Shown one piece after another: positions 43,379 to 63,354 of a stretch of DNA of 64,000 nucleotides. The notes under the pieces were generated by a model. That model was not told the DNA's origin. It saw nothing but the letters and a program-made list of their open reading frames with translations, and ran no database searches. Source of the stretch: Methylicorpusculum oleiharenae (GTDB lineage: Bacteria; Pseudomonadota; Gammaproteobacteria; Methylococcales; Methylomonadaceae); the NCBI RefSeq assembly GCF_009828925.2, contig NZ_WUTY02000001.1:4494492-4558491 (forward strand), given 5' to 3'. Each line of letters begins with the position of its first letter. Position 1 is the first letter of the stretch. Position numbers and translations under genes: made by a program.

Positions 43379-43579
43379 ATGGCTTTATATATAGTGGCTG
43401 ACGAATGCATTTCCTGCGGTGATTGTGAGCCGGTCTGTCCGACCGGATCGATCAAAGAAGGCGCCATCGTCTACGAAATCAACAAAAAAACCTGTACTGA
43501 ATGTTTGGGCGACCACGACAAACCTGAATGTGTCAGGGTATGCCCCATCGACAACTGTATCCTACCGTTAACGGCCTAG
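43379..43579 (+). CDS. Small 2[4Fe-4S] nif ferredoxin
   Basis: 66 aa from the ATG at 43379, eight to nine bases after AAGGAGG. Clusters are CISCGDCEPVCP (C10, C13, C16, C20) and CTECLGDHDKPECVRVCP with the eight-residue loop typical of the nif/Alvin-type ferredoxins. It is an electron carrier, shorter than the FdxN-type protein beside nifB. It sits between nifT and nifY, a place where Azotobacter vinelandii (from memory) has no ferredoxin gene. It probably serves nitrogenase or cofactor assembly. Confidence 0.9.
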   Translation: MALYIVADECISCGDCEPVCPTGSIKEGAIVYEINKKTCTECLGDHDKPECVRVCPIDNCILPLTA

Positions 43580-43581
43580 TC

Positions 43582-44558: not shown

Positions 44559-44570
44559 TAAGGATACTCG

Positions 44571-46529: not shown

Positions 46530-46904
46530 CTAATGACTGATCATCCACGGCCGCTGGGACGGAAAGACCTTGCTGCCATCGGGCATAAACACCACCTGCT
46601 GACTCAAATCACTGCGATCCGGATGTTTAATGTTACAGCCGCAGCTTTTGCCGTGCTGATGGCGTAAGGCCGTTTCTTCTCGGGCATCCGGTGTTGATAG
46701 CCGGGGTTCATGCTTTGCCTTCTCGTTGGTTTCGATGATTTTTCGTTTGGCCGGCGCCATAGCCAGCACCTGCGGAGCGATCAAAATCACACGGGCGCTG
46801 GGCTTGCCGCATCTTGGGCACGCACAGGGCATACCGGCTTGATCCATGGTCGCAAGATCATGGAAAACGCCATGATCTGAACATTTATAATCATAAACAG
46901 GCAC
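46530..46904 (-). CDS. fmdB: FmdB-type zinc-ribbon regulatory protein
   Basis: 124 aa starting at a GTG at 46904. AGGAG lies eight bases upstream of that GTG but only three before the in-frame TTG at 46910, and GTG gives the family start MPVYDYKC. Zinc ribbon: C8 region in YDYKCSDHG and CPRCGKPSARV. A later CGCN with the GKSCGC segment may bind a second metal. FmdB family members beside fmdA in Methylophilus influence formamidase expression. It is the last gene of the urt-fmd operon. Confidence 0.85.
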   Translation of the reverse strand: MPVYDYKCSDHGVFHDLATMDQAGMPCACPRCGKPSARVILIAPQVLAMAPAKRKIIETNEKAKHEPRLSTPDAREETALRHQHGKSCGCNIKHPDRSDLSQQVVFMPDGSKVFPSQRPWMISH

Positions 46905-46993
46905 GATCAACGCTCCTCTTGATTTGTTTAAGATAGAAACATCACTGATCCACGAAGCTACTCTAATGTGGACTCATTGCGGATTTTTTATAA

Positions 46994-48223
46994 TTAAAGA
47001 TCCGGTGACAAAGGCACTTGAACACTGCCGTCCACTTCTATTTTGGGACCATCGGCATTGGGCTTGACCTCAAACTTGAAGATATCCGTAGGCAGCCATA
47101 AGGTCGCACAGGCATTTGGAATATCTACAACCCCGCTGATATGGCCTTGAACCGGCGCAACACCGAGAATGGTATAGGCCTGCGCTCGCGAATAGCCGAA
47201 TTTGGTCAGATATTCTATCGCGTTTAAACAGGCCTGGCGGTATGCGATATGAACATCCAGATAATGCTGTTTGCCGCCCTCATCGACGGAGATACCTTCA
47301 AATATCAAATAATCGTCATATTTGGGCGCCATCGGGCTGGGTTTGAAAATAGGATTTTTGATACCGTATTTCTGCATGCCATCCTTGATCAGGTTAACCC
47401 GCATATGAATCCAGCCGGCCATTTCAATGGCGCCGCAAAACGTAATTTCGCCATCGCCCTGACTGAAATGCAAATCGCCGACACTGAGCCCGGCATTGTC
47501 GACATAAACCGGAAAATACACAGTTGAACCGCGGGATAAATCCTTGATATCGCAGTTACCGCCATGTTCGCGCGGCGGAACGGTCCTGGCACCTTCTGCA
47601 GCGGCAGCCTTTGCCTCTTCGCCCTTCATCCGGCCCATATGCGCGGTATCCGCATAAGGCAATGTTGCCAGCGCAGGCACTCTATCCGGATCGGTATCGT
47701 ATAACGCTTTTTCCCGTGTATTCCACTCTTCCAGCATGGCTTTTGAAGGCAATGTTCCGATCAGCCCCGGATGGATCAACCCGGCAAATTCAACGCCCGG
47801 CACATGGCGAGATTTGGTAAACATGCCGTTAAAATCCCAGATTGTCTTTTGCGCTTCAGGGAAATGTTCGGTCAAAAAGCCGCCGCCGTTCTGTTTGGAA
47901 AAGAAGCCGTTAAACCCCCACTGACTCTCTTCAAATGCACCGATATCGAGAATTTCTACGACCAGCAAATCACCGGGTTCTGCGCCTTCAACCCCTACAG
48001 GTCCCGATAGAAAATGCACTTTTGACAAGTCGACATCACGCACATCATCGGCGGAGTCGTTGTTTTTGATCTGACCGCCGGTCCAGTCCACCGACTCGAC
48101 TATAAAATCATCGCCGGGTTTCACCATCGCCACCATAGGAATGTCAGGATGCCAGCGGTTGTGAATCATATCGTTTTCGTAAGGGGATTTGTTTAAATCG
48201 ACTTTTATAATGGTGTCAGCCAT
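46994..48223 (-). CDS. fmdA: FmdA, formamidase
   Basis: 409 aa acetamidase/formamidase family protein, ATG at 48223 behind CAGGAG. The start DTIIKVDLNKSPYENDMIHNRWHPDIP and the segments SGPVGVEGAEPGDLLVVEILDIG, HPGLIGTLPS, FPVYVDNAGLSVGDLHFSQGDGE (split) and GWIHMRVNLIKDG are the usual FmdA landmarks. It hydrolyses formamide (and slowly other short amides) to formate and ammonia in the cytoplasm. Its gene follows urtABCDE, whose transporter would supply urea or short amides. Formate can be oxidised for energy by a methanotroph. Confidence 0.94.
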   Translation of the reverse strand: MADTIIKVDLNKSPYENDMIHNRWHPDIPMVAMVKPGDDFIVESVDWTGGQIKNNDSADDVRDVDLSKVHFLSGPVGVEGAEPGDLLVVEILDIGAFEESQWGFNGFFSKQNGGGFLTEHFPEAQKTIWDFNGMFTKSRHVPGVEFAGLIHPGLIGTLPSKAMLEEWNTREKALYDTDPDRVPALATLPYADTAHMGRMKGEEAKAAAAEGARTVPPREHGGNCDIKDLSRGSTVYFPVYVDNAGLSVGDLHFSQGDGEITFCGAIEMAGWIHMRVNLIKDGMQKYGIKNPIFKPSPMAPKYDDYLIFEGISVDEGGKQHYLDVHIAYRQACLNAIEYLTKFGYSRAQAYTILGVAPVQGHISGVVDIPNACATLWLPTDIFKFEVKPNADGPKIEVDGSVQVPLSPDL

Positions 48224-48259: not shown

Positions 48260-48949
48260 TCAAACGGATAAATAAGCCGCGACTTTGGCTTCGTTAAGCG
48301 ATGCCCGCTCTTCTTCATGAACAATTTCGCCTTTTTCCAGCACGATGACCCGATCCGCGATTTCAAGCGTAAAGCTCAGCACTTGCTCGGATACGATGAT
48401 GGACAAGCCTCGGGTATCCCTGATCTTTTTCAAGGTCCGAGCCATCTCGCGGATGATGGACGGTTGAATCCCTTCAGTCGGTTCATCCAGCAACAACAGT
48501 TTGGGCTTGCTGGCCAATGCCCTGGCGATGGCCAATTGCTGCTGCTGACCGCCGGAAAGATTCCCGCCGCGCCGGTTACGCATTTCCTCAAGCACAGGAA
48601 ACAGTTCGTAAAGATCTTCCGGTATGGTTTTTTCACCGGTGCTGGTCAGACCGGTTTCAATGTTTTCCTTGACGGTCATGGTTGAAAAAATCATGCGTCC
48701 TTGAGGTACAAAACCCAATCCCCCGGCCACACGCTGATGGCTTTTAAGATGAGTAATATCGATGTCTTCCAGCGTAACCCTGCCCTGCGCAGCCGGTATC
48801 ATGCCGATCAGCGACTTCATCAGCGTCGATTTACCCATGCCGTTACGGCCCATCACCGCCACAATTTCTCTGGGTTTAACCTGAAAGTTAAGCCCATGCA
48901 GTACTTCACTCTGACCATAAGCCACGTGATAATCTCTAACGCTCAACAT
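48260..48949 (-). CDS. urtE: UrtE, urea/amide ABC transporter ATPase 2
   Basis: 229 aa, LivF-like ATPase. Walker A GRNGMGKSTLM (near residue 34), Q-loop in GFVPQGRMIF, signature LSGGQQQQLAIARAL, Walker B LLLLDEPTEGIQP and His-equivalent region IVSEQ. The E-subtype is shown by its place after urtD and by the pattern TEGIQPSI. It powers import with UrtD. Transcribed from the urtABCDE operon on the minus strand with short gaps. Confidence 0.93.
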   Translation of the reverse strand: MLSVRDYHVAYGQSEVLHGLNFQVKPREIVAVMGRNGMGKSTLMKSLIGMIPAAQGRVTLEDIDITHLKSHQRVAGGLGFVPQGRMIFSTMTVKENIETGLTSTGEKTIPEDLYELFPVLEEMRNRRGGNLSGGQQQQLAIARALASKPKLLLLDEPTEGIQPSIIREMARTLKKIRDTRGLSIIVSEQVLSFTLEIADRVIVLEKGEIVHEEERASLNEAKVAAYLSV

Positions 48950-48970: not shown

Positions 48971-49720
48971 TCAATGCCCAAGGTAAACTTCAATCACTTT
49001 GGGATCATTTTTCACGCGTGACATGGAGCCTTCCGACAACACTTTGCCCTGGTGCATGACTGTCACCCGATGAGCAATATCTTCAACGAACTGCATATCG
49101 TGTTCGACCACCAGAACAGAACGTCCTTCGGTAATTCGGTTAAGCAAATCCGCCGTTTTTTTACGTTCGGCAACGGACATCCCGGCAACCGGTTCATCCA
49201 GCATCAGCAAATCCGGCTTCTGAATCAGTAACATCCCGATTTCCAGCCATTGTTTCTGACCATGACTTAACAGACCGGCCTGTTTGTCCAGGTCATCTTT
49301 TAGAAATATGGTTTCGGCGGTTGCTTCCACCTCCCGGATGACTTCCTTATCCCGCTTGAACGCTAACGCACCAAAAACACTGCGGCCACGCGGGTAAGAA
49401 ATCTCCAGGTTTTCAAAGACGGTCAAGTCTTCGTAGATGGAAGGATTTTGAAACTTTCGGCCCACGCCCGTATGCACAATTTCGTGTTCTTTCATCCGCG
49501 TCAGCTCTTTCCCCCGGAACTTGATGGAGCCTTTTGTGGCTTGCGTGCGTCCGCAGATCAAATCCAGCACGGTGGTCTTACCCGCCCCGTTCGGTCCGAT
49601 AATCACCCGAATTTCGCCTTCATTGACATAAAACGACAAATCATTAACGGCTTTAAATCCGTCGAACGATACCGTGAGCCCTTCCACTTCAAGGACAAAA
49701 TCATTCGCCTTAATCGACAT
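48971..49720 (-). CDS. urtD: UrtD, urea/amide ABC transporter ATPase 1
   Basis: 249 aa from the ATG at 49720, which has AAGGGGG upstream and matches the family start. The frame is open further (to 49759), but that would lie inside urtC. Walker A GPNGAGKTTVLD, signature LSHGQKQWLEIGMLL (the LivG/UrtD-type LSHG), Walker B LLMLDEPVAGMS, H-loop LVVEHDMQFV. It overlaps the end of urtC by 11 bases. Confidence 0.93.
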   Translation of the reverse strand: MSIKANDFVLEVEGLTVSFDGFKAVNDLSFYVNEGEIRVIIGPNGAGKTTVLDLICGRTQATKGSIKFRGKELTRMKEHEIVHTGVGRKFQNPSIYEDLTVFENLEISYPRGRSVFGALAFKRDKEVIREVEATAETIFLKDDLDKQAGLLSHGQKQWLEIGMLLIQKPDLLMLDEPVAGMSVAERKKTADLLNRITEGRSVLVVEHDMQFVEDIAHRVTVMHQGKVLSEGSMSRVKNDPKVIEVYLGH

Positions 49721-50954
49721 AAACGCCCCCTTCCAGCGAATTGACAGGCACCGTTTCATCGGATTGTTTTTCAGTGCTTTTACTGGTTGCGGTTTCAGGC
49801 TGAGTATCCGTTGAAGTCAACGGCGCTTTTTCCAAAACTTCAGCAGGTTGGACCGGTTTTGCTTTGCCGTGATACCAGGCAGGAAGATAGGGTTCTATAT
49901 AGCGAAGAAACAGACTGGCAAGCCCATTGGGAAAAGCCATGACGACACCAATGAACAGTGCGCCCATGGCGAACAGCCATAATTCTGGAAATGATTCGGA
50001 AAAACTGGTTTTAGCCCAATTCACCAGCAAAGAACCGTAGACCGCGCCGAGTATCGACAATCTTCCGCCCACAGCGCAAAAAATCACCATTTCTATGGAC
50101 GGCACAATGCCCACAAAAGAAGGCGACATAAACCCGACCTGCAGCGTAAACATCGCTCCGCCGACTGATGAAATGGCAGCGGCCAGACAAAACACAAAGA
50201 TTTTGAAGTTGGCCACATCGTAGCCGGAAAACCGGACCCGTTCTTCACGGTCACGCATCGCTACCAGAATCCGGCCTAATTTGTTCTTACGGATAAACTG
50301 AGCGATCAGCAGGCAGCCAAACAACAGGATGCAATTGACAAAATAAAGAACCAGCTTCGCATTATCGCTGCGGATGTCCCAACCCAGCAGCGTGCGTAAA
50401 TCGGTAATACCATTAACGCCGCCGGTATAACCTTGCTGACCGATGATCAGGATGGTCAGTATTGCCGCCAACGCCTGGGTTATGATGGCAAAATAAACGC
50501 CGCCCACCCGACGTTTGAACATCGCCACGCTGATAATAAATGCAAACACAGTGGGCACCAGAACCACCACGATCAAGCTCAGCGTCAGACTGTTAAAAGG
50601 CTGCCACCACCAGGGTATAGCGGTAATCTGATTCCAGTCCATAAAATCGGGAATGCCGGGAGTGGACTGGATTTTGGTCGATACGGGATCGGACGCTTCC
50701 AGCTTCAAAAACATAGCCATACAATAGCCACCCAGCCCGAAAAACAAGCCCTGCCCCAAACTCAGAATACCGCCGTACCCCCAGCACAGCACCAGACCCA
50801 ATGCGACGAAAGAATAAGTCAGGTATTTGCCGACCAGATTCAAACGAAACACATCCAAAACCAGCGGCAGTATCACGATCAAAATAAGCGCCAGCACTGC
50901 AAATCCAATCAGGTCCTGGCGTGGCATAAATAAAGCTTTAGCACGTTCCTGCAT
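49710..50954 (-). CDS. urtC: UrtC, urea/amide ABC transporter permease
   Basis: 414 aa, ATG at 50954 behind GGAGA. LivM-like permease with about ten membrane segments; GYGGILSLGQGLFFGLGGYCM and VGGVYFAIITQALAAILTI are family landmarks. A C-terminal tail of about 45 residues is rich in Thr, Glu and Ser (TDTQPETATSKSTEKQSDE) and lacks structure; such a tail is longer than in typical UrtC proteins. Works with UrtB as the membrane channel. Confidence 0.92.
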   Translation of the reverse strand: MQERAKALFMPRQDLIGFAVLALILIVILPLVLDVFRLNLVGKYLTYSFVALGLVLCWGYGGILSLGQGLFFGLGGYCMAMFLKLEASDPVSTKIQSTPGIPDFMDWNQITAIPWWWQPFNSLTLSLIVVVLVPTVFAFIISVAMFKRRVGGVYFAIITQALAAILTILIIGQQGYTGGVNGITDLRTLLGWDIRSDNAKLVLYFVNCILLFGCLLIAQFIRKNKLGRILVAMRDREERVRFSGYDVANFKIFVFCLAAAISSVGGAMFTLQVGFMSPSFVGIVPSIEMVIFCAVGGRLSILGAVYGSLLVNWAKTSFSESFPELWLFAMGALFIGVVMAFPNGLASLFLRYIEPYLPAWYHGKAKPVQPAEVLEKAPLTSTDTQPETATSKSTEKQSDETVPVNSLEGGVYVD

Positions 50955-50975: not shown

Positions 50976-51902
50976 TTAATGACGGATCTTGAGAGCGAAG
51001 AGACCTTGAGGCCGCAACATGAGGATGCCGACCACCAGCAGCAACGTAATGACCTTGGCCATTGACCCACTGAGAAAAAATTCCAGCGTGGATTGCGATT
51101 GCGAGATGGTGAACGCAGATGCGATAGTACCCAGCAGACTTTGTGCGCCTCCGAACACAACAACCAGAAACGTATCGACTATATATAACTGGCCTGAAGT
51201 CGGTCCGGTGGAACCGATCATCGTAAAAGCACTGCCCGCGATACCCGCAACACCGCAGCCTATCCCGAACGTATAGCGATCGATTTTTTCGGTATTGATG
51301 CCTACAGCGCCGGCCATGGGCCGATTTAACACGACTGCGCGTACCTGTTTACCCCATCGTGAACGGAACATCAGTAAATAAACGCACAAAGAAATAAACA
51401 GCGTCAGCACCATGACAAAAATACCGTTGATCGGTACTTCAATGGTTTCGCTCAAGGCATAAGAACCCATCATCCAGTCCGGCAAAGTGACGCCCACTTC
51501 GCGCGCGCCGAAAATCGTCCGATAAAGCTGCTGCAAAATCAGGCTCAAGCCCCAGGTTGCCAGCAAAGTATCCAGAGGACGTTTAAAGAGGAAGCGAATC
51601 ATGCACCACTCCACCAGCACACCCAGCGCAAACGAAGCAAGAAAAGCCAAGCCCATCGCGACAAAGAAATAACCGTCAAACAGGCTGGGCATGTAAGTCT
51701 CAAATAATTTAGCCGTTAAATAGGTTACGTAAGCACCCAGGATCATGAACTCCCCGTGTGCCATATTGATGACCCCCATCTGACCGAAAATAATGGCCAA
51801 GCCCAGCGCCATCAAAACCAGTACAGAAAACAGAATCAATCCTGCAAATCCCTGCATCGCAAGAATTGAGGTCAGCTCACTCATGGTGTACTCATCAAAC
51901 AT
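50976..51902 (-). CDS. urtB: UrtB, urea/amide ABC transporter permease
   Basis: 308 aa, ATG at 51902 behind GGAGG. LivH-like permease with eight or more membrane segments; GFAGLILFSVLVLMALGLAIIFGQMGVINMAHGEFM (in pieces) and RPMAGAVGINTEKIDRYTFG are family landmarks. The usual periplasmic extension that some UrtB proteins carry at the N-terminus is absent. Partner of UrtC. Confidence 0.92.
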   Translation of the reverse strand: MFDEYTMSELTSILAMQGFAGLILFSVLVLMALGLAIIFGQMGVINMAHGEFMILGAYVTYLTAKLFETYMPSLFDGYFFVAMGLAFLASFALGVLVEWCMIRFLFKRPLDTLLATWGLSLILQQLYRTIFGAREVGVTLPDWMMGSYALSETIEVPINGIFVMVLTLFISLCVYLLMFRSRWGKQVRAVVLNRPMAGAVGINTEKIDRYTFGIGCGVAGIAGSAFTMIGSTGPTSGQLYIVDTFLVVVFGGAQSLLGTIASAFTISQSQSTLEFFLSGSMAKVITLLLVVGILMLRPQGLFALKIRH

Positions 51903-51979: not shown

Positions 51980-53263
51980 TTACTGATAGCCCACCGGGAA
52001 TGGATTGGGTTCAATCAGATCGGCACTTTCAAATACGACTTTGTATTGACCGTCTTTCTGAGCCAGACCGACGCGGGTCTTGGACCAAAGATGATGGTTC
52101 TCATGAATCTTGACATACCCTTCAGGGGCTGTGGTCAATTCGATACCCGGTGAAGCGGCACGCACTTTGTCGATATCAAATGAACCGGCTTTTTCTACCG
52201 CAGCTTTCCACAACCAGGGTCCCAGATAGGCTGCCTGCGTTACGTCGCCGATCACAATGTCTTTACCCCATTTGTCTTTGAAGGCCTGAACAAATGCTTT
52301 GTTATTGGGATTGTCCAAACTTTGGAAATACTTCATCGCGGCATAGGCGCCTTCAATATTTTCTCCGCCTATCCCCAGGATTTCATCTTCAGTCACGGAA
52401 ATAGTCAGCAGCAGCGGTTTTTCACTGGGCAGCTTGATACCGGCGGCATTCAGCTGTTTGTAAAAGGCAACGTTAGACCCGCCCACCACAATGGCGTAGA
52501 TCACATCCGGCTTTTTGAGTTTGATCTTGTTGATCACGGAGTTGAACTGGGTATGGCCCAGAGGATAGTATTCTTCCCCAACGACGGTCAGACCCAGCTT
52601 TTCAATATGTTTACGGGCAATCTTGTTGGAGGTACGCGGCCAGATGTAATCGGAACCGAGCAGATAAAATGTTTTGGCACCCTTCTCTTTTACGACCCAG
52701 TCGATACCGGCAATAATCTGTTGTGTCGCTTCCTGACCGGTATAAATTACGTTAGGCGACTGTTCCAATCCTTCATAAAACGTCGGGTAATACAACATGC
52801 CGTTATATTGTTCAAACACCGGCAATACCGCCTTACGTGACGCGGAAGTCCAACAACCGAATACAGCCGCTGTTTTGTCATTGACCAGCAGTTTTTTGGA
52901 TTTTTCAGCAAATGTCGGCCAATCACTGGCGCCATCTTCCTGAATGTATTCGATCTTACGGCCTAATACGCCTCCCGTGGCGTTGATCTGATCGATCGCC
53001 AGTTTCTCCGCTTGCACCGAGCCGGTTTCGCTGATCGCCATGGTGCCGGTCACCGAATGCAAAATACCGACGGTTACGGTATCATCGGTTACGGCCAATC
53101 CCGTGGTATTGACTTCACTGGTTGCCGGTGCCGCCCAGGCCATGTGTGACGCCAGCAACAGGCTCACAGGCAGGGCGCATAGCGCTTTGACAGTCAGACG
53201 ACGTCCAGACACCTGACAAGTGCTGCCGGCTTTGGATAGTCGAAGATCGGTTGGGTTACGCAT
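51980..53263 (-). CDS. urtA: UrtA, urea/amide ABC transporter substrate-binding protein
   Basis: 427 aa, ATG at 53263 with AGGAG eight bases upstream. Signal peptide LTVKALCALPVSLLLASHMAWAA, cleaved after AWA, after a polar leader of about 24 residues containing RR, longer than a normal Sec signal. The mature part has the type-1 periplasmic binding fold: GILHSVTGTMAISETGSVQAE, FGCWTSASRKAVLPVFEQYNG (split) and FYLLGSDYIWPRTSNK. These are typical of UrtA and of the Methylophilus FmdD protein. Substrate may be urea or short amides; sequence alone cannot tell. Confidence 0.93.
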   Translation of the reverse strand: MRNPTDLRLSKAGSTCQVSGRRLTVKALCALPVSLLLASHMAWAAPATSEVNTTGLAVTDDTVTVGILHSVTGTMAISETGSVQAEKLAIDQINATGGVLGRKIEYIQEDGASDWPTFAEKSKKLLVNDKTAAVFGCWTSASRKAVLPVFEQYNGMLYYPTFYEGLEQSPNVIYTGQEATQQIIAGIDWVVKEKGAKTFYLLGSDYIWPRTSNKIARKHIEKLGLTVVGEEYYPLGHTQFNSVINKIKLKKPDVIYAIVVGGSNVAFYKQLNAAGIKLPSEKPLLLTISVTEDEILGIGGENIEGAYAAMKYFQSLDNPNNKAFVQAFKDKWGKDIVIGDVTQAAYLGPWLWKAAVEKAGSFDIDKVRAASPGIELTTAPEGYVKIHENHHLWSKTRVGLAQKDGQYKVVFESADLIEPNPFPVGYQ

Positions 53264-53574
53264 AATGTGCTCTCCTAAGGTTTATGTGGTTCGCGGTTAG
53301 TGTCCGTTAAAGCGGCTTAGTCCGCCATTCGTCGGATGATCACCCCTGTTACGTCATATGACGTATAGCTAATGACACAGTGTCCAGGTATGCTTTCAAC
53401 TATGAAACCCCGTTTAGCCAAGCTTTATGCTGTTGCCTGTGGTAACTCGCAATCAGAACAACCGCCTTTTGATCCCGGTTTGGATTGGAGTACGTACATT
53501 CCATACACCATTGGTTTAAGACCCGCTTCGTCACTTTCAAAAAGACGCTTAAGCCAAGTGGCTACGCTCACCTC
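53264..53574. promoter_or_regulatory. Divergent urtA / sensor-kinase promoter region
   Basis: A 311-bp gap between divergent genes. It holds a perfect 16-bp palindrome at 53350-53365 (TACGTCATATGACGTA). No sigma-54 element matching GG-N10-GC in the right place was noticed on either strand. Translations of this gap are not gene-like. Confidence 0.5.
53350..53365. promoter_or_regulatory. Perfect 16-bp palindrome TACGTCATATGACGTA
   Basis: Self-complementary over its full length, centred 87 bases from the urtA start. It is a candidate operator for the LuxR-family regulator encoded downstream of the sensor. Confidence 0.55.
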
Positions 53575-56500
53575 ATGAACGCCCAGCAAAAAGTTTTTCG
53601 GGTTCGACGGAATTACAATCGCTGGGTAGCCAACCAAACACTTGAAGACTATGCGTTGCGTTTCACGGCCAATAGCGCCAGAAAATGGTCGGCCACGCAG
53701 GTAGCGCTTACTGCTTTGGGTGCGATTTCATTTTTGGCTTTGGAGGCCATTGGCGGCGCAATAACCCTCAGCTACGGATTTACTAACGCCGTAACGGCTG
53801 TTGCGGTAGTCGGAACGATCATTTTTTTGACCGGTTTGCCAATTTGTTACCACGCGGCAAAACAAGGCATTGATATTGACTTGCTCACCCGGGGAGCAGG
53901 CTTCGGTTATATCGGATCGACCATTACATCGCTGATTTATGCGTCTTTCACCTTTATTTTTTTCGCACTGGAAGCCGCGATCCTGTCACTGGCGCTGGAA
54001 CTGATACTCAATATTCCACTATCGATCGGCTATTTAATCAGCGCGTTGCTGGTCATTCCTCTGGTTACCCACGGCATCACGCTGATCAGCCGGTTTCAGA
54101 TCTGGACTCAACCGCTGTGGCTTGTTCTGCAAATTCTGCCCCTGGCCTGCATTGCTTTAAAATCGGATGAAGCCATCAGCCTCTGGACTGAATACAATCC
54201 CACGGCAACCGGCCCGGATTTCAATTTGATCGCTTTTGGCGCTGCATCTGCAGTTTTGTTCTCACTGATAGCGCAAATCGGCGAACAGGTAGATTTTCTT
54301 CGCTTTCTTCCCCAGGAAAATAAATCGTCGCGCAGTTGGTGGTTAGCGATGCTGACTGCAGGCCCCGGATGGATCATCATCGGTTCCGGCAAGATATTGA
54401 TAGGTTCTTTCTTAGCTGTGCTGGCTCTCAAGCATGGCATCGCTCACGAGGAAGCCTCCGATCCTAACCGGATGTACCTGACCGCATTCAGTTATATGAA
54501 TCAAAGCCCGCAATTCACGCTGTTGATGACCGGTGCGTTTGTAATTTTGTCGCAGCTCAAAATCAACGTGACAAACGCCTATGCCGGATCCATTGCCTGG
54601 TCCAACTTTTTCTCCAGACTCACTCAGAACCATCCCGGCCGCGTCGTCTGGCTGGTGTTCAATGTTGCAATTGCATTAATGTTGATGGAACTTGGCATTT
54701 ACCGGGTTCTGAAAGAAATTCTCGGCGTTTATGCGATTATTGCCCTGGCCTGGGTAGGCTCAATGGTTGCGGATCTGGTCATCAACAAACCGCTGGGCTT
54801 ACGTCCCCAAACCATGGAGTTCAAACGCGCCCATCTTTACGATATCAATCCTGTCGGCGTAGGCTCGATGCTCGTTGCTTCAGTCACCGGCTTTATGGCT
54901 CACGCCGGGCTGTTCGGGGAAATTCCGCGCGCCCTGTCTTCTTTTATCGCCCTGGGCTCTACGTTTATTTGCGCCCCTCTGATCGCCTGGCTAACCCAGG
55001 GGCGTTACTATATTGCCCGCGAACCTTCGGTTTTTCCTTCTCGTGCAGAGATAAGCTGTTGTATCTGTGAACACCATTTCGAACCCGAGGACATGAGTCA
55101 TTGCCCTGCTTACGCCGGGCCCATCTGTTCGCTGTGTTGTTCGTTGGACAGCCGTTGTCACGACATGTGTAAAACCAACGCCAGACTGTCGGATCAATTG
55201 ACGGCATCGTTAAGCCTGGTGTTCCCCCTGAGCTGGGTGAAAGTGTTGAATAACCGCATTGGCCATTTTCTGGGTTTGTTCATACTGACCAGTTTGATGA
55301 TCGCCTGCTTGTTGATGCTGGTGTTTTTTCAAATAACGCTTGATGAAGGGGTTGAAAAAAATGGAGTTGCCCTGGCATTGATCAATGTTTTCTTTATACT
55401 TTTGATCGTATCGGGCGTCGTAGCCTGGATGTTCGCGCTGGTCCACGAAAACAGAAAGATTGCCCAGGAAGAATCCCGACGCCAAACACAACTCCTGATG
55501 GCCGAAATTAGCGCCCATAAAAAAACCGACCAGGAATTGCAGCAAGCCAAAGAGGTCGCAGAATCTGCCAACAAGGCCAAAAGCCGCTATTTGACGGGAA
55601 TCAGCCACGAATTACGCTCACCGCTCAATGCCATCATGGGCTATGCGCAACTTCTGGAAAAAGACCAGACCATTCCGGCAAAAAGGAGGGATGCGCTGGC
55701 CGTTATCCGCCGCAGCAGTGAACATCTAGCCGACTTGATCGAAGGTCTGCTTGATATTTCCCGCATTGAGGCAGGCCGTCTTCATCTGTCGCGCAGCGAT
55801 GTCCAGCTGGGCGGTCTGTTGGATCAGATTGTCAGCATGTTCGAAGTTCAGGCAATTGCAAAGGGCATCCATTTTGAGTACAAACGTCTGACTCCGCTTC
55901 CCGATACGGTGCGCACCGATGAAAAACGCCTGCGTCAAATCCTGATCAATGTAATATCGAATGCGATTAAATATACCCACCAAGGCCAAGTCAGCCTTTC
56001 GGTCAGTTATCGAAATCAGGTCGCCGAATTTTCTATCAAAGATACCGGTGTCGGTATCGCATCCAAAGATATGGACCGAATTTTCCGGCCTTTCGAACGG
56101 ATACGCAAAGCCGGATCGCCCCATATCACCGGCACGGGTTTGGGTCTGACCATTACCCGCTTCCTGACTGAGATCATGGGCGGCGATATCAGCGTAGAGA
56201 GTACACCGGGTGTGGGCAGCCATTTTAATGTCCGGCTGATGCTGAGCAGCGCCATGACCCTTGCCGCCAATACCGCGCCCGAAAAAATAGTCTGCGGCTA
56301 CGCGGGCAAAGAGAAAACCGTATTTGTCGTAGATGATGAACCCAGTCATCGTGGCCTGCTTCAGGAAATGCTGACACCACTGGGCTTTAATGTAATTCAG
56401 GCTCAGGACGGCTTGTCTTGCCTGGATATGCTGCAATACTGTGAATGCGAACCGCATATTTTCCTGCTGGATATCGCCATGCCCGGAATCAGCGGCTGGG

Positions 56501-56973
56501 AACTGGCTCATATTGTTCGCAAGCGGATACCTTCAGCTGTCATCCTGATGGTATCCGCCAACGCCAATGAGCAAGTTCCGCCGCAGCTTCAAATGGCGCC
56601 CCATAATGCTTATTTGGTAAAACCCCTGCGCATGGCTCAACTTCTGGACACGCTTCAGCAACAGACCGGACTCACCTGGCTTTATAAACCCTGTGAACAA
56701 GACACCCAAAATCAAACCGGTCTTGCTTTGGCAGCACCCCAACAAAATCGCAGTATCAGCGATACGTTAAAAACCAACCTGATAACCGATCAAGAAGCTC
56801 GAGGCGAGTTAATCCGGCTGGCACAAATCGGCTACGCCAATGGCATCTGTTCATTACTTGAACAGCTTAAAAATGAGCATCAGATTGATGCCGACCTGAT
56901 GCAGCAGCTTGAAGAATTAACGCATCAGTTCCAGTTTTCAGCACTGATCAAATTACTCAAGGAACAGGCATGA
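53575..56973 (+). CDS. NCS1 permease-like sensor hybrid histidine kinase
   Basis: 1132 aa from the ATG at 53575 (an in-frame TTG at 53485 is less likely; no strong ribosome-binding site). Residues about 30-450 are an NCS1-type nucleobase:cation symporter domain (NRWVANQTLEDYALRF, ~12 helices). Residues 491-525 are a Cys-rich stretch (CCICEHH...CSLCCS...CHDMC). Two more helices lie at 562-622, then HisKA with GISHELRSPLNAIMGYAQLL near 677, HATPase with NVISNAIKYT, DTGVGIA and GTGLGLTI (788-860), and a C-terminal receiver from 915 (FVVDDEP, Asp in LLDIAMPG). Presumably it senses a nitrogen compound while binding or moving it. Divergent from the urt-fmd operon; overlaps the regulator by ATGA. 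Confidence 0.9.
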   Translation: MNAQQKVFRVRRNYNRWVANQTLEDYALRFTANSARKWSATQVALTALGAISFLALEAIGGAITLSYGFTNAVTAVAVVGTIIFLTGLPICYHAAKQGIDIDLLTRGAGFGYIGSTITSLIYASFTFIFFALEAAILSLALELILNIPLSIGYLISALLVIPLVTHGITLISRFQIWTQPLWLVLQILPLACIALKSDEAISLWTEYNPTATGPDFNLIAFGAASAVLFSLIAQIGEQVDFLRFLPQENKSSRSWWLAMLTAGPGWIIIGSGKILIGSFLAVLALKHGIAHEEASDPNRMYLTAFSYMNQSPQFTLLMTGAFVILSQLKINVTNAYAGSIAWSNFFSRLTQNHPGRVVWLVFNVAIALMLMELGIYRVLKEILGVYAIIALAWVGSMVADLVINKPLGLRPQTMEFKRAHLYDINPVGVGSMLVASVTGFMAHAGLFGEIPRALSSFIALGSTFICAPLIAWLTQGRYYIAREPSVFPSRAEISCCICEHHFEPEDMSHCPAYAGPICSLCCSLDSRCHDMCKTNARLSDQLTASLSLVFPLSWVKVLNNRIGHFLGLFILTSLMIACLLMLVFFQITLDEGVEKNGVALALINVFFILLIVSGVVAWMFALVHENRKIAQEESRRQTQLLMAEISAHKKTDQELQQAKEVAESANKAKSRYLTGISHELRSPLNAIMGYAQLLEKDQTIPAKRRDALAVIRRSSEHLADLIEGLLDISRIEAGRLHLSRSDVQLGGLLDQIVSMFEVQAIAKGIHFEYKRLTPLPDTVRTDEKRLRQILINVISNAIKYTHQGQVSLSVSYRNQVAEFSIKDTGVGIASKDMDRIFRPFERIRKAGSPHITGTGLGLTITRFLTEIMGGDISVESTPGVGSHFNVRLMLSSAMTLAANTAPEKIVCGYAGKEKTVFVVDDEPSHRGLLQEMLTPLGFNVIQAQDGLSCLDMLQYCECEPHIFLLDIAMPGISGWELAHIVRKRIPSAVILMVSANANEQVPPQLQMAPHNAYLVKPLRMAQLLDTLQQQTGLTWLYKPCEQDTQNQTGLALAAPQQNRSISDTLKTNLITDQEARGELIRLAQIGYANGICSLLEQLKNEHQIDADLMQQLEELTHQFQFSALIKLLKEQA

Positions 56974-57884
56974 TGCAGACCGGCCGGAAAAAAGACGTGG
57001 TTTTGATTGTGGATGACTCCCCTGAAACCTTGAGCATGCTTAACGACACACTCGATCAGGCCGGACTGACCGTGCTGGTTGCGCTGGAAGGTGCTCAAGC
57101 GCTGACCATTGTGGACAACATCACGCCGGACATCATATTGATGGATGCGATCATGCCCCACATGGATGGATTTGAAGCCTGTAAACGACTGAAAGCCAAC
57201 CGATCGCTGGCTCATATTCCCGTCATCTTCATGACCGGATTGTCCGATACAGAAAGCATTGTCAAAGGCCTTCAGGCCGGAGGCGTGGACTACATCAACA
57301 AACCCGTCAAAGGTGATGAATTAATTGCGCGTATGCAAGTCCATTTAGCCAATGCCAGGCTCACCTTAAGCGCACAAACCGCTCTGGATACCGCCGGTCA
57401 ATACCTGTTCGCCGCATCCTCGGAAGGCGCTTTGCTGTGGACTACTCCCCAGGCCAATCAACTGTTCAATACGGCAGGTGTCACAATAGACTGGCTTGAG
57501 GAAAATCTTCCCAATCAATTGCGCCAGTTACTGCAGCCTCAGTTTAATAAAGAAAAAGGTCTCCTCATCAAGGTGAACGAGAAGCCATTGGAAATTCGTT
57601 ATATAGGCCAAACCGGTGCCAACGAATTTTTATTACGGCTGATTGATTTGCAGCGCCCCAGTGAAATCGAACGCTTACGCTCCGCGCTGCCCATTACCGA
57701 ACGGGAAGCCGAAGTGTTACTCTGGATTGCCCGAGGCAAAACCAACCGGGAAATCGGGACTATTCTGAGCATGAGCCCCCGAACGGTTAATAAGCACCTG
57801 GAACAGGTTTTCCGAAAATTGAATGTGGAAAACCGCACGACCGCCGCCGTTTTTGCGATGAAGTATCTGAATCAGGAATCCTGA
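56970..57884 (+). CDS. LuxR-family response regulator
   Basis: 304 aa. N-terminal receiver (VLIVDDSPETL; phospho-acceptor Asp in DIILMDAIMPHMDG; Lys in YINKPVKGDE) at residues 8-125. A linker of about 100 residues (120-225) is longer than in NarL-type regulators. The C-terminal LuxR HTH has TEREAEVLLWIARGKTNREIG and SPRTVNKHLEQVFRKLNVENR. It is coupled to the sensor kinase by a four-base overlap. It probably controls urtABCDE-fmdAB through the palindrome in the shared promoter (inference). A second alternative start is the next codon but one (ATGATG). Confidence 0.92.
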   Translation: MMQTGRKKDVVLIVDDSPETLSMLNDTLDQAGLTVLVALEGAQALTIVDNITPDIILMDAIMPHMDGFEACKRLKANRSLAHIPVIFMTGLSDTESIVKGLQAGGVDYINKPVKGDELIARMQVHLANARLTLSAQTALDTAGQYLFAASSEGALLWTTPQANQLFNTAGVTIDWLEENLPNQLRQLLQPQFNKEKGLLIKVNEKPLEIRYIGQTGANEFLLRLIDLQRPSEIERLRSALPITEREAEVLLWIARGKTNREIGTILSMSPRTVNKHLEQVFRKLNVENRTTAAVFAMKYLNQES

Positions 57885-59063: not shown

Positions 59064-59999
59064 CTATATAAACACCAGCAGCAAAGCCAACAGCGCTATT
59101 GAAGCAAACTGCCAGCGCCTGTCGATCCAGATGTCTTTGTTAACCGCTAATGCTTCTGATTGAAGCGCCTGATTAAACGCTGCTGTTTCGGTCAAGCGTT
59201 GATACCCCAAACCGGTCTCTGCCGCCAATTGTTTCAAATACGGTTCATGCAACCGGCTCAAATGTTCCGAACCTACCGCAGCCTCACTGCCGAAAGGAGC
59301 ATTGCGGGCATCGTAGCCTTGAATCGATTCAGGATTCAGATCCGATTCGCCAAAAGTTGAACGGTGCGGTACATCATCGGCGCTATAAAACCCCACACGT
59401 TTGCCTTGCTGATCAAATTTCGGGATAGGTTTCGGTTCTAACCCACCGACGCCCACGATCAAACCTTTGATCGTGTCCTTCACGATGGAAAAATCAGGTC
59501 CATAACGCGAATTGAGCGGTGGCGCCTCATGACCGTCCGAGATAAATATCAAACGGGTTTCCTGATCATCTTTCAACATATCCAGAGTATTCAATAAACC
59601 GTGAGCAATCCGGCTATCAGCTGCCCAGGCCGATTGCCAATCCAATGCAGCAATGGCGGCATCCAGTTCATTAAAACCGGAACAGACTTCTATAGGCTGG
59701 AATAACAGTGACGAACGCCGTTCGGTAAACACGCCCAAACCCACTTTGGATTGGCACGGCAAGCTCGACAAAAGCTCACGTAAGGTCATTTTGACAAACT
59801 CGAGTCGGCTGATGATTTCACCGTGATAACGGTAATCCTCGGTGTTCATGCTCCGGGTGATATCGACAATGAATGTCATCTGATAGGCCGGACCCGATCG
59901 CTTGATCTTGGGAAACAGAAACAGCATCACCAAAGCCAACAAAGCGAAGGTTAAACACCAAAAGCGAAAGTCTTTGAAACACTCACGTTTAGCTAACAT
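59064..59999 (-). CDS. mxaL: MxaL-like von Willebrand A protein
   Basis: 311 aa from the ATG at 59999; an in-frame TTG at 60020 is possible. An N-terminal signal anchor (FWCLTFALLALVMLFLF) is followed by a VWA domain with the MIDAS-like FIVDITRSMNTED, and a C-terminal anchor FASIALLALLLVF. The Asp-x-Ser-x-Ser MIDAS reads DITRSMN, so the first Ser is Thr with a displaced Ser. In mxa clusters MxaL, MxaK and MxaC are needed for active methanol dehydrogenase, probably for Ca2+ insertion. It is the last of the mxaS-A-C-K-L series; no mxaD follows. Confidence 0.8.
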   Translation of the reverse strand: MLAKRECFKDFRFWCLTFALLALVMLFLFPKIKRSGPAYQMTFIVDITRSMNTEDYRYHGEIISRLEFVKMTLRELLSSLPCQSKVGLGVFTERRSSLLFQPIEVCSGFNELDAAIAALDWQSAWAADSRIAHGLLNTLDMLKDDQETRLIFISDGHEAPPLNSRYGPDFSIVKDTIKGLIVGVGGLEPKPIPKFDQQGKRVGFYSADDVPHRSTFGESDLNPESIQGYDARNAPFGSEAAVGSEHLSRLHEPYLKQLAAETGLGYQRLTETAAFNQALQSEALAVNKDIWIDRRWQFASIALLALLLVFI

Positions 60000-60023
60000 G
60001 GTTGCTCTCTGCACTGTCAACCA

Positions 60024-60581
60024 TTACGGCAAACCTCGGGGAAAGCCCGGCACTGTAGTCCATAACCGGGTTTTCCGGTTTTCCTTGTCATCGGCTTCGA
60101 CAGTGATTCTGTCCATTTCCGGCGCAATGCGCATCGCCACCTCAAGGTTGTATTTCGCATCCCAAAACTGACTGTCCAGCGCAAGCGCTTGCCGGTAAGC
60201 CTGCTTTGCCAATGCCGCCAGGGGAAGTGCATCGTTGATCGCCATTTTTTCAGCCCGTTCAACTGTTTGCGTTAAATAAAGATTACCCAGGTTATAACGG
60301 GTTTTAGCCTGAAGGCTTGGGCTGCCCTGATCCAGAATTAAATTGAGCGTCGCCAGTGCTTCATCATACCGGCCTTTTTCCCTTAAATAGACGGCTCGTG
60401 CCAAACGCACTTCCGGCGAGGCCTTCACGACTTTCTCAATGGCAATATCGTGACCCGACAGCAACCGGTTTATCCAGGCGTTCTCATTGTGAATTTGCAG
60501 CAATGTCCAGGCCTGGATAATAAAAACCAGCGTACTGACGCTGAATATTCCCCACAACACAGTATTTTTTATTATTCTCAT
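60024..60581 (-). CDS. mxaK: MxaK-like protein
   Basis: 185 aa from the ATG at 60581, with AGGTGA eight bases upstream and an ATGA overlap with the mxaC stop; the longer reading from 60641 is rejected. It starts with one membrane anchor (LWGIFSVSTLVFIIQAWTLL). The rest is helical and TPR-like, with VYLREKGRYDEALATLNLIL and RYNLGNLYLTQTVERAE as repeat-like units and QALALDSQFWDAKYNLEVAMR near the end. The periplasmic helical domain could scaffold the two VWA proteins encoded on either side. Call rests on order and size. Confidence 0.78.
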   Translation of the reverse strand: MRIIKNTVLWGIFSVSTLVFIIQAWTLLQIHNENAWINRLLSGHDIAIEKVVKASPEVRLARAVYLREKGRYDEALATLNLILDQGSPSLQAKTRYNLGNLYLTQTVERAEKMAINDALPLAALAKQAYRQALALDSQFWDAKYNLEVAMRIAPEMDRITVEADDKENRKTRLWTTVPGFPRGLP

Positions 60582-61564
60582 GACCGATTCACCTCGCACA
60601 GTTTCAACACCAGCAATAGAGCAATCATCAGACTTGCCCATTGATAACAGAGCCCTGATAGATCCTGCTTGGGTAGGCGTTCAAAATAATGTAACGGACG
60701 ATTTTCCAGCTTATCGATATCGTCAATAGCCGCTTGCAAACCTTCAGGAGACTCGGCTTCATAAACTTGATAAGGCACATTCAAACTCGAAAAAAACAAA
60801 TGCAGATACTTTTCCGGCAAGGCCTGGGCATTGTCATCACGGGTATTTTCAGGTTTTTCATGAATACCGGGACTGTTTGACGTCCTCAGGAATACCCAAT
60901 ACAAACGGATGTGCTGATCCTTGATTAATGTTCGCAGCGCTTGCTCACTGTCAGAGTCGATCGCTGCAGCCCCGTCGGAAACCAAAACGACAATACGGGT
61001 TCCGTTTGTCGGCTGTTCGTCAAAAAATGACAAGGCCATGGCCAGGCCTTTGCTGATATGGGTATAAGCCAATGCGGGAGTCGCTGTCGCGTCAATGGCA
61101 GCATGCAGTGCCTGTTTATTTTCAGTCAGCGGCATGACAAACAGCGGTGCGGTGCTGAATTCGGCGATACCCATCAAATCATGGCTGCGTTTGTCGATAA
61201 ATTCAGTCAATAGCCTTCTTGCGGCTGCAGATTTGGATTCTTCCTGATCATTCATCGGTGCTTTTCCCGCAAAGGTCGTGTCCATGCTGTTACTTCTATC
61301 TAAAAGCAGCACGATATGCGCACCCCGACCAATACGCTCGATGCGTTGTTCTTTTAAATAAACGCCGGACAATCCCAGAATCAGCAAGCCAATTGCCGCC
61401 ATGCCGATGATGCGGATCAAAACCGAAAGCAACGAAGAGAGCGTATCCTCAGGCAGGATAGCAAGCCACGGATAAGCTTGCGATTTGATGCCGGTTCTCA
61501 GCAGAGGCACCATCATCAAAAGCAATCCGGAAAGAAGCCACGGTGTATCGAAATTAATCAGCAC
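60578..61564 (-). CDS. mxaC: MxaC-like von Willebrand A protein
   Basis: 328 aa starting at a GTG at 61564, with GAGG eight bases upstream. Architecture is BatA/MxaC-like: two N-terminal helices (WLLSGLLLMMVPLL; IIGMAAIGLLILGLSG), a VWA domain with intact MIDAS DRSNS (LLLDRSNSMDTTF), TEFIDKRSHDLMGIAEFST and RIVVLVSDGAAAID, and a C-terminal helix. It belongs to the methanol-dehydrogenase maturation set. Its stop overlaps mxaK. A generic aerotolerance (Bat) operon would have a different neighbouring gene order. Confidence 0.82.
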   Translation of the reverse strand: MLINFDTPWLLSGLLLMMVPLLRTGIKSQAYPWLAILPEDTLSSLLSVLIRIIGMAAIGLLILGLSGVYLKEQRIERIGRGAHIVLLLDRSNSMDTTFAGKAPMNDQEESKSAAARRLLTEFIDKRSHDLMGIAEFSTAPLFVMPLTENKQALHAAIDATATPALAYTHISKGLAMALSFFDEQPTNGTRIVVLVSDGAAAIDSDSEQALRTLIKDQHIRLYWVFLRTSNSPGIHEKPENTRDDNAQALPEKYLHLFFSSLNVPYQVYEAESPEGLQAAIDDIDKLENRPLHYFERLPKQDLSGLCYQWASLMIALLLVLKLCEVNRS

Positions 61565-61567
61565 AAA

Positions 61568-62506
61568 TCAGCCTCTTTCCAGTTCGACACAGCGTTGACA
61601 CATTTTTTTCAGAGCGTCCCACTCATCAGCACCGGCAGACGGTTTTCCACCGAAAAAATAGTCGTTGGAAAAATTGAAAAACCACTCCAGTTCGGGGCCT
61701 ATTTCTTTGAACTCCGGCCTTAGCCTGTAAAACTCTGACAAGCGGTGCTTAAACAGGGGTTTATGATTCAACTGATTGAAAGCCTGATGAATAATCACCA
61801 AAGCCAAACCCAGTTCATTGGGCTGCATTTTCTTTATTCGTCCGTTTGCCCGGCTAAAAAAACTGCGCCTTGGAAAACCAACGAAATAGCCGTAACGAAA
61901 CGCCAATAACAAGCCGCAAAACAGACCTGACGCCACACTGATCGATAACAGGCGCAAAGCGTTTTGCGAAGAAATTAGGGTGGGTGTTGCATCGGGCCGA
62001 CGATACGTGTTGCCCTCCTCTTTTCTGACAGCCAATTCATGAATCGGTGAAACGGTAAATGACCATTCGGGCACAACCTGTTCAATAGCCTGGTCACCTT
62101 GTTTGAACCGAAGTTTAAAGCCCGCAATAGTCAACATTTTGACTTCCAAAGGCGCGTAAAAGACCTGGTATGTCAACTCGATTTCAGTCAGATGCTTTGA
62201 AACTGGCCGAACAGTAATTTGATCGATTGACAACCAACGGTTGAGATCACCTTTGGCAGGGAGACTCGTAGGTTCCAGTTGAATACCGGAACGGGTTCCA
62301 ATCACTATCCGATGCCGAATTTTATCGCCAATGACATAGCCAAAAGGTTTAGGCGTCTCAAATTCAAATCGTTCGATAGGAGGCGGCAAGCCTTCTGAAC
62401 AGGCAACCAGTAAAAACAGTGAATACACCAGAATAGAGCGGGCATATTTTACTATTTGGTGGCTTAAGTCGGTGTCTTTGCAATGCAGGAAAGGTAACGA
62501 TTTCAT
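61568..62506 (-). CDS. mxaA: MxaA-like methanol dehydrogenase maturation protein
   Basis: 312 aa, coupled by ATGA to mxaS. A lipoprotein-type signal (LVYSLFLLVAC, Cys near residue 36) after a polar leader, then a periplasmic strand-rich domain (residues ~45-175, FGYVIGDKIRHRIVIG, VFYAPLEVKMLTIAGFKLRF). One membrane helix follows at ~185-205 (LLSISVASGLFCGLLLAF) and a cytoplasmic helical tail (ALVIIHQAFNQLNHKPLFKH). This layout matches MxaA, and not the short DUF4381 protein of generic MoxR operons. MxaA mutants of methylotrophs make calcium-free inactive methanol dehydrogenase. Confidence 0.8.
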   Translation of the reverse strand: MKSLPFLHCKDTDLSHQIVKYARSILVYSLFLLVACSEGLPPPIERFEFETPKPFGYVIGDKIRHRIVIGTRSGIQLEPTSLPAKGDLNRWLSIDQITVRPVSKHLTEIELTYQVFYAPLEVKMLTIAGFKLRFKQGDQAIEQVVPEWSFTVSPIHELAVRKEEGNTYRRPDATPTLISSQNALRLLSISVASGLFCGLLLAFRYGYFVGFPRRSFFSRANGRIKKMQPNELGLALVIIHQAFNQLNHKPLFKHRLSEFYRLRPEFKEIGPELEWFFNFSNDYFFGGKPSAGADEWDALKKMCQRCVELERG

Positions 62507-63354
62507 AATGCTCTCGCCTGAAAATACCGGGTCACTGCTTCGGCTTGATAACCTTGGCTAATAAACAACGGCTCGGTACCTAACGATCTGAAACATTGTT
62601 GCAAATCGGCTTTTCGTTGCGCGAAGGCATCGATAATCTGTTTTTTGAACGCCGGTCTCATCAGTAAAGTACGGGTAACTCCGTTTTCCTTGTCTTTAAA
62701 TTTAACGATCCCCCACTCAGGCAGATCCGAAGAAGCTACTTCGTTCCACAACACAACAGGAACGACCGCATGCCTGTTCAGTTGCGGCAGCAACGCCTTA
62801 AGCACAGCCAAATCAAAGTGAAAATCGGAAACCAAAAAAATCAATGCGCGTTGTGAAGTTATGAGTGCAGGTGTATTGAGCAAGCCGGAACTGGTCCCAA
62901 CCGGTTTTGAATCAGCCAACTGTCCGGCCATTTTTTGGACAATGCCCCAATGATGACCGGCCGGAATATGCCACTTCGAACTGATACCGGTATCACAACC
63001 AATAAACCCGAAGCGGTCGCCTGTCTGATAAGCCGAAAGCGCAGCAGAAAGCATAAATTGAGACATGACCTGCATCACGCTTGATTGTCCTTCAATCCCC
63101 ATGGACCCCGACAAATCAGCGATCATGTAAAGTGTAGTTTGTGTGTGTTGCTGAAAGACTTTGACCCAATAGGACTGGAATGGATTAAGCAGACTGGCTC
63201 TCAAATCGATGCGCCGAGTGTCGGGACTGGCCATCAACGGCACATGAGCTTTGAACAACTGCCCGGCGCCTGTCAGCCGTCCCGGATGCGCTCCAGGATA
63301 AACATGGGTTGACGGCTGACCCAAACGGTAAATAAACGGAGTGGTAGAAATCAT
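62503..63354 (-). CDS. mxaS: MxaS-like DUF58 protein
   Basis: 283 aa, ATG at 63354. DUF58/VWA-like fold with DLRASLLNPFQSYWVKVF and the degenerate MIDAS YMIADLSGSMG, then DRFGFIGCDTG and LIFLVSDFHFDL. It has no membrane segment, so it is cytoplasmic. In mxa clusters mxaS follows the MoxR ATPase gene mxaR; here the upstream gene is a membrane protein, so mxaR, if present, lies beyond the window. The stop overlaps the mxaA start. Confidence 0.8.
   Translation of the reverse strand: MISTTPFIYRLGQPSTHVYPGAHPGRLTGAGQLFKAHVPLMASPDTRRIDLRASLLNPFQSYWVKVFQQHTQTTLYMIADLSGSMGIEGQSSVMQVMSQFMLSAALSAYQTGDRFGFIGCDTGISSKWHIPAGHHWGIVQKMAGQLADSKPVGTSSGLLNTPALITSQRALIFLVSDFHFDLAVLKALLPQLNRHAVVPVVLWNEVASSDLPEWGIVKFKDKENGVTRTLLMRPAFKKQIIDAFAQRKADLQQCFRSLGTEPLFISQGYQAEAVTRYFQARAL

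Follow-up and report, generated by a model that had tools for sequence, protein, structure and literature searches.

Urea and formamide rank among the important sources of nitrogen. In the window analyzed here, a 64,000-nucleotide stretch of the Methylicorpusculum oleiharenae genome, a gene for a large histidine kinase with a transporter-like N-terminal part stands back to back with an operon for urea/amide uptake and formamidase. The locus raises the question of what such a protein senses and what it controls. The answer is very probably that it is an NCS1-fold, transceptor-like kinase that responds to urea or short-chain amides by switching on the uptake and hydrolysis operon next to it.

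Table 1. Features of the sensor locus and the divergent operon (positions in the window)
Feature	Position	Strand	Basis
Hybrid sensor histidine kinase, transporter-like, 1132 aa	53575..56973	+	ORF; Pfam HisKA, HATPase_c, REC; H-box HELRSP at residue 678
NCS1-fold membrane domain, residues about 25-480, 12 TM helices (predicted)	53647..55014	+	AlphaFold model, fold matches
Cys-rich module, residues 495-532, C-x2-C-x11-C-x7-C-x2-C-C-x5-C-x3-C, cytoplasmic, probable binuclear treble-clef zinc finger	55057..55170	+	Cys conservation, model, weak fold matches
Helices 13 and 14, residues 561-621, joining Cys module to kinase	55255..55437	+	AlphaFold model
HisKA dimerisation/phosphoacceptor domain, residues 668-734	55576..55776	+	PF00512
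HATPase_c, residues 781-890	55915..56244	+	PF02518
Hybrid kinase receiver (REC), residues 916-1027	56320..56655	+	PF00072
Response regulator, 304 aa: REC, unassigned middle region, LuxR-type HTH (GerE)	56970..57884	+	PF00072, PF00196
Predicted operator, perfect 16-bp palindrome TACGTCATATGACGTA	53350..53365	.	Between urtA and sensor; 87 bp from urtA start, 210 bp from sensor start
urtA, substrate-binding protein, urea/amide ABC transporter	51980..53263	-	TIGR03407 556.6 bits, cut-off 492.75
urtB, permease	50976..51902	-	ORF; gene order conserved in relatives
urtC, permease	49710..50954	-	ORF; gene order conserved in relatives
urtD, ATPase	48971..49759	-	ORF; gene order conserved in relatives
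urtE, ATPase	48260..48949	-	ORF; gene order conserved in relatives
fmdA, formamidase	46994..48223	-	NF045496 781 bits, cut-off 500; PF03069 E 5e-187
fmdB-type zinc-ribbon protein	46530..46910	-	PF09723, TIGR02605, NF053663

Sensor Kinase and Partner Regulator

The sensor is built, in order, of 12 helices, the Cys module, helices 13 and 14, HisKA, HATPase_c and REC. The last three domains score far over the Pfam cut-offs, bearing out the kinase and receiver of the original prediction, and the two helices that it placed between the Cys stretch and the kinase are found in the AlphaFold model. The expected coupling to a LuxR-type regulator is also seen: the regulator ORF overlaps that of the sensor by 4 bp. 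The genes thus encode a hybrid histidine kinase/REC-LuxR pair, with an H-box HisKA, HATPase_c and REC in one protein and REC plus a LuxR HTH in the other. A Pfam domain search found no HPt domain that could link the receiver of the kinase to the regulator. On the opposite strand, profile matches to UrtA, FmdA and the FmdB-type protein confirm that the sensor gene diverges from urtABCDE-fmdAB, as had been proposed.

Membrane Domain

The membrane domain had been described as an NCS1 symporter domain, and the predicted fold agrees. In the AlphaFold model (pLDDT 88), the best fold match is CodB (Z 38.0, 3.1 A, 397 of 400 residues); Mhp1 matches with Z 28-31, other LeuT-fold families reach at most about 24, and SLC5 members rank below NCS1. 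One correction concerns the direct family match: PF02133 (NCS1) hits neither the sensor nor any other protein of its genome. No match at E up to 1 was obtained when a profile of the domain was compared with the sequences of solved structures. The sensor also lacks Pfam matches to PF00474 (SLC5/SSF) and to the Amt domain, and the SSS control in the profile comparison gave a probability of 0.1. A kinase-less relative, L049, that is 42% identical does match PF02133 (E 8.6e-8, 31.8 bits, cut-off 23.5). Judged from the predicted fold and this relative, the domain is a divergent NCS1-fold domain beyond the reach of PF02133.

The small NCS1 alignment may contain some mis-framed rows, single-sequence comparisons ranging from 0 to 86% probability; the fold search is therefore the main evidence, and the following alignment is provisional. 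In it, K329 and I330 fall on the Na2 Ser/Thr positions of TM8. K329 is invariant, as are the intramembrane residues E133, Q234, E237, Q238, D240, N331 and N334, and all eight are common to the sensors and their kinase-less relatives. At position 333 of TM8, all 102 amide-type sensors have Thr, and 27/41 urea-type sensors have Met or Ala; with few lineages behind the pattern, it is only a lead to a possible specificity residue.

Cys-Rich Module

The stretch after the membrane domain contains nine Cys (495, 496, 498, 510, 518, 521, 522, 528 and 532) rather than the ten first counted, and eight of the nine are invariant across all kinase-bearing relatives. The model shows a hairpin plus a helix. 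The Cys pattern and the predicted secondary structure agree with a treble clef: a CxxC knuckle, a beta-hairpin, a second CxxC at the start of the helix, and a second Cys quartet. Fold matches to treble clefs are weak (Z <= 4.0, E at best 0.5). The kinase-less transporters L036b and L248b retain the complete module, and urease-linked kinase-less relatives have lost Cys 510, 522, 528 and 532 together, exactly four of the eight. The module is most likely a binuclear, FYVE/RING-like treble-clef zinc finger, the zinc itself being predicted. A redox switch was also considered and was judged less likely because one quartet is lost in concert; a structural zinc site fits better with both the treble-clef layout and this correlated loss.

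Genomic Association and Distribution

If the sensor serves the neighboring operon, sensors of this type should co-occur with urt/fmd genes, a test set beforehand. When 398 genomes were drawn evenly from the phylum, 54 assessable sensor loci were obtained, and inspection of the surrounding 20 kb revealed urt, fmdA or urease genes at all 54. The 80 loci closest to that of the window include urtA in 75, fmdA in 48, ureC in 10 and a homologous regulator in 76. The operon partner has repeatedly changed its type (amide or urea) without loss of the association. Some sensors (L030, L233, L234, L228, L236 and L237) have no urt genes nearby and are accompanied by fmdA-AmiS or urease alone. In the class sample, about nine loci are without urt, fmd or ure neighbors (three of them on a short contig or close to the end of one), among them L032, a paralogue with 50% identity from the same genome.

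The kinase-less relatives keep similar company. They are found in urease clusters (Klebsiella, Acinetobacter, genome G279), next to fmdA or amiE (genome G263, Tsukamurella) and, in Arthrobacter, next to an aliphatic amidase. These neighborhoods suggest that the sensor domain descends from a urea/amide transporter.

About one in seven of the genomes sampled from the phylum carries the sensor family, which also occurs on 532 plasmid records, 342 of them from Klebsiella. Its members are mostly annotated just as ATP-binding protein.

Predicted Operator

The intergenic region between urtA and the sensor gene contains TACGTCATATGACGTA, the only perfect site of its kind across the 5.85-Mb genome. Its core, TACG-N8-CGTA, is present in 54/79 divergent urtA/sensor intergenic regions, against 0.55 expected from controls; most of the remaining regions carry it with one mismatch, and half-site enrichment is found essentially at gap 8 only. 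In the systematic sample, the exact motif is present at 30/54 sensor loci and in 0.3% of control stretches; 5 amide-type and 9 urea-type loci have no recognizable site in the 600 bp that precede the sensor. Given this recurrence and its uniqueness in the genome, TACGTCATATGACGTA is predicted to be the operator of the urtA/sensor region. A genome-wide search for a wider regulon returned ten other sites with 2-3 mismatches, no commoner than in the reversed control, and scanning the intergenic region for sigma-70 promoters gave nothing over chance. The predicted operator opens the regulatory claim to a simple reporter test.

Proposed Mechanism and Alternatives

The 12-helix domain would bind urea or a short-chain amide; since the operon here ends in fmdA, formamide or something closely resembling it is the most likely ligand. 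Ligand binding would change its conformation, and the change would pass through the putative cytoplasmic binuclear zinc module and the two-helix hairpin to the histidine kinase. Phosphate would then move from the kinase to its own receiver and reach the REC-LuxR regulator by phosphotransfer. The regulator would bind the palindrome upstream of urtA and turn on urtABCDE-fmdAB. A bolder version, which we consider doubtful, is a true transceptor: the sensor would itself carry amides or urea, sodium-independently with K329 replacing the Na2 ligands, and signal flux through the zinc module, which would have been a cytoplasmic gate already in the ancestral transporter. If so, it would be a first representative of a large family of NCS1-fold sensor kinases in which amide and urea regulons are interchangeable.

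The NCS1 fold might instead be a mere scaffold, leaving the nutrient unbound while the sensor reads Urt transporter activity or the internal nitrogen state. Retention of the domain without an adjacent urt/fmd operon in L114 and its clade, and in the paralogues L032 and L034, speaks for such a role, but the invariant intramembrane residues are shared with kinase-less transporters of urease and amidase clusters, and some sensors are accompanied only by fmdA-AmiS or urease, with no urt genes nearby. We regard the scaffold as improbable. Slightly less probable still is a reading in which the true input comes through the Cys-rich module, which would gate the kinase as a redox or metal sensor, with the membrane domain providing location or coincidence sensing. 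The invariance of eight Cys among kinase-bearing members speaks for it; against it, the module is complete in two transporters that have no kinase and half-kept in urease-linked ones, which lack one predicted metal quartet, and its predicted treble-clef form suggests structural zinc.

It is very unlikely that the neighborhood is coincidental or a selfish cluster, in which mobile DNA carries the sensor and urt/fmd together but the sensor controls something else. The many plasmid copies, largely from Klebsiella, speak for this, but the association spans the even genome draw, several classes and three catabolic partners (fmdA, urease and fmdA-AmiS), and the operator-like site sits in the shared intergenic region. 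Sensing of amides or urea by the NCS1-fold domain is the preferred reading.

Comparison with Known Systems

The original prediction likened the sensor to CbrA, with a transporter domain acting as sensor and a different transporter family, and the CodB/Mhp1 fold match together with the missing SLC5/SSF match agrees. The sensor works like CbrA, CrbS/MxtR and RpuS, in which a LeuT-fold transporter domain forms the N-terminal part of a kinase and a small cytoplasmic module separates the two, yet it is outside that SLC5/STAC family. Its membrane domain is NCS1-like where theirs is SLC5, and where they have a four-helix STAC, the model places a hairpin-helix module with eight Cys, together with two TM helices. 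The regulators that pair with CrbS and RpuS are of the LuxR family, and RpuR drives a transporter operon via a promoter motif (PMC9100948, PMC5715377); the TACG-N8-CGTA operator predicted here differs from the ACTU motif of CrbR. The likely substrates are amides or urea, as opposed to acetate, pyruvate or histidine. CbrA has a Lys in its Na2 site (PMC13022988), to which the invariant K329 may correspond on the provisional alignment.

Ks-Amt5, an ammonium sensor, likewise joins a transporter domain to a histidine kinase (PMC5764959). It resembles the proposed nitrogen-source receptor in this fusion, but it has an Amt fold, another ligand and no Cys module, whereas the sensor is of the LeuT/NCS1 type. 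CodB, Mhp1 and MetT share the NCS1 fold, and only the sensor has a kinase fused to it; the Na2 Ser/Thr ligands on TM8 of CodB and Mhp1 are provisionally aligned with K329 and I330. As MetT shows, the substrates of NCS1 transporters can include small nitrogen compounds that lack a ring (PMC13390362). The Methylophilus methylotrophus fmdCABDEF cluster combines formamidase with short-chain amide/urea ABC uptake, as here, and is induced by formamide and urea; the parts of its description available through a review (PMC10781810) contain no such sensor pair.

Our literature search covered open literature and returned no report of an NCS1 kinase or of two-component sensing of urea or amides. Within that literature, two-component receptors for urea and short-chain amides appear to be undescribed, as apparently is this widespread sensor family. 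Independently of SLC5, the family provides a second LeuT-fold lineage for studying the change from transporter to receptor, with kinase-less relatives at hand for comparison.

Organization and distribution of the sensor system

The sensor system is real and conserved, and it extends far beyond a single locus. The sensor, a hybrid histidine kinase with HisKA, HATPase_c and REC domains (Pfam), is encoded together with a REC-GerE (LuxR-type) regulator, divergently from urtABCDE, fmdA and fmdB; UrtA and FmdA exceed the curated NCBIfam cut-offs. Other window genes include nitrogen-fixation-like genes and a VWA/DUF58 group in an arrangement that resembles mxaSACKL, genes for methanol dehydrogenase maturation. 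Together with a Methylomicrobium among the nearest relatives, this group suggests a methanotrophic host.

Coordinates of genes and sites (window positions unless a locus is named)
Feature	Position	Strand	Description
Sensor ORF	53575-56973	+	1132 aa; 4 bp overlap with regulator ORF
Regulator ORF	56970-57884	+	start overlaps end of sensor ORF
Regulator interdomain region	57336-57692		~120 aa between REC and LuxR HTH; no assigned domain, possibly PAS-like by eye
Palindrome	53350-53365		urtA/sensor intergenic region
Iron-molybdenum cofactor-type genes	43528-45335	+	dinitrogenase cofactor-type protein, then LRV-FeS protein, as in nitrogen-fixation clusters
329-aa protein	45301-46290	+	no Pfam or NCBIfam match
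VWA/DUF58 genes	59064-63354	-	order reminiscent of mxaSACKL
Second sensor kinase	L032:11974-15336		same contig (G000:C1), ~110 kb before the sensor; NCS1 fold, own regulator, 50% identical
Klebsiella kinase-less relative	L244:7971-9578		downstream of ureDABCEFG; annotated cytosine permease

Matches were found in 57 of 398 genomes drawn evenly from the phylum, the majority being full-length sensors. Fifty-five sensor-like loci of this sample were taken with about 9 kb per side, one of them a 4.8-kb contig; urt, fmdA or urease genes are present in every one of the other 54, a positive outcome for the originally suggested check on whether NCS1-kinase fusions co-occur with urt/fmd. The 80 genome_contigs loci nearest to the window, a set skewed to the window's own type, contain urtA (75), fmdA (48), ureC (10), aliphatic amidase (18) and the regulator (76). 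An earlier class sample held about nine sensors without urt/fmd/ure neighbors, three of them close to the end of a contig or on a short one. Among the nine or so are the paralogue that the window genome carries and the corresponding gene of a relative. The second sensor at L032 has no urt/fmd/ure neighbors at its locus and no palindrome upstream; in genome G249 a counterpart (L034) is separated by about 9.5 kb from that genome's first sensor.

Annotated sensor loci include urt-fmd (Chelatococcus, Azospirillum), urt plus urease (Sphingobium), fmdA plus an AmiS/UreI channel (Paracoccus), and conjugative plasmids of Klebsiella and Burkholderia. The sensor occurs in 342 Klebsiella plasmid records; in the one plasmid inspected (L028, conjugative) urt is present beside it, and the place of fmdA is taken by an amidase of the AmiE family that carries a formamidase annotation. 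In a 107-row tree, amide-type loci and urea-type loci cluster, yet have swapped several times; thus the catabolic enzyme varies while the sensor remains tied to the urea/amide compound class. For urt-type transporters adjoining fmdA and amiE, amides rather than urea have been proposed as cargo in B. japonicum (PMC3098086) and P. veronii (PMC13209695).

The membrane domain and its putative ligand

The predicted NCS1 symporter domain held as to fold, though not as to Pfam family: PF02133 matches neither the window protein nor any other in the genome, marking a divergent subfamily. It does match a kinase-less relative with 42% identity. An AlphaFold model built from a 51-sequence alignment of relatives (mean pLDDT 88) has 12 helices, a Cys-rich module and two further helices. 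Its top solved-structure matches are the NCS1 transporters CodB (Z 38, 3.1 A, 397 residues) and Mhp1 (Z 28-31); all remaining LeuT-fold families score about 24 or below. In a provisional profile alignment the invariant K329 and I330 of TM8 fall on Thr278 and Thr279, the two hydroxyl residues that serve CodB as Na2 ligands (PMC9379551). CbrA has a lysine in its Na2 site, and its transport depends on protons (PMC13022988). Sodium coupling may have been lost in the sensor domain.

The strongest evidence for urea or an amide as the putative ligand is the gene context of the kinase-less homologues (518-565 aa) and the invariant intramembrane residues they have in common with the sensor (E133, Q234, E237, Q238, D240, K329, N331, N334). 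These homologues adjoin ureDABCEFG in Klebsiella, urease genes on an Acinetobacter plasmid and in genome G279, formamidase in Tsukamurella, formamidase plus amidase in genome G263, aliphatic amidase in Arthrobacter, and the sensor gene itself in Methylovirgula. The transporter presumably preceded the sensor in evolution. The Klebsiella "cytosine permease" is a candidate urea transporter. Residue 333 of TM8 is Thr in 102/102 amide-type sensors and Met or Ala in 27/41 urea-type sensors, and is a possible specificity position.

The Cys module

The stretch after TM12 (residues 495-532), cytoplasmic by NCS1 topology, was originally credited with ten Cys; nine were counted. Eight (495, 498, 510, 518, 521, 522, 528, 532) are Cys in all kinase-bearing sequences, and some kinase-less members have them too. 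The urease-linked kinase-less group keeps 495, 498, 518 and 521 but has jointly lost 510, 522, 528 and 532, a pattern that would fit a pair of four-Cys metal sites, cross-braced as in FYVE/RING fingers. The predicted structure shows treble-clef elements (knuckle, hairpin, helix); fold matches are weak (Z at most 4.0), nearly all FYVE, RING, PHD, ZZ or LIM fingers, and are only suggestive of a treble clef. Redox sensing, suggested originally as an alternative to zinc binding, has no specific support. The module sits where CbrA has STAC, the domain joining SLC5 transporter to kinase, which is docked beneath the transporter (PMC13022988); by analogy, it could plausibly couple the membrane domain to the kinase.

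A predicted operator

The urtA/sensor intergenic region contains a perfect palindrome, TACGTCATATGACGTA, the sole perfect match within the 5.85-Mb genome. Of 79 divergent urtA/sensor intergenic regions, 54 contain the pattern TACG-N8-CGTA, where same-length stretches from other parts of those loci give 0.55; most of the other regions have it with one change, and N8 is essentially the only spacing at which it occurs. In the even sample, 30/54 loci have the exact motif (0.3% of control stretches) and 40/54 have it when up to one mismatch is allowed among the eight fixed bases (6.6% of control stretches). Inverted repeats are known binding sites of LuxR-family regulators. The palindrome is probably bound by the REC-LuxR regulator. 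The motif differs from that of CrbR (PMC5715377).

Comparison with known transporter-fused kinases

The sensor varies a known design, the transporter-fused kinase. The proposed likeness to CbrA, with a different transporter family, stands: the predicted fold is NCS1, and the sensor lies outside the SLC5/STAC family. The transporter family and the linker module are new relative to known transporter-fused kinases; the system also comes with a predicted operator, and the operons associated with it form a well-defined class.
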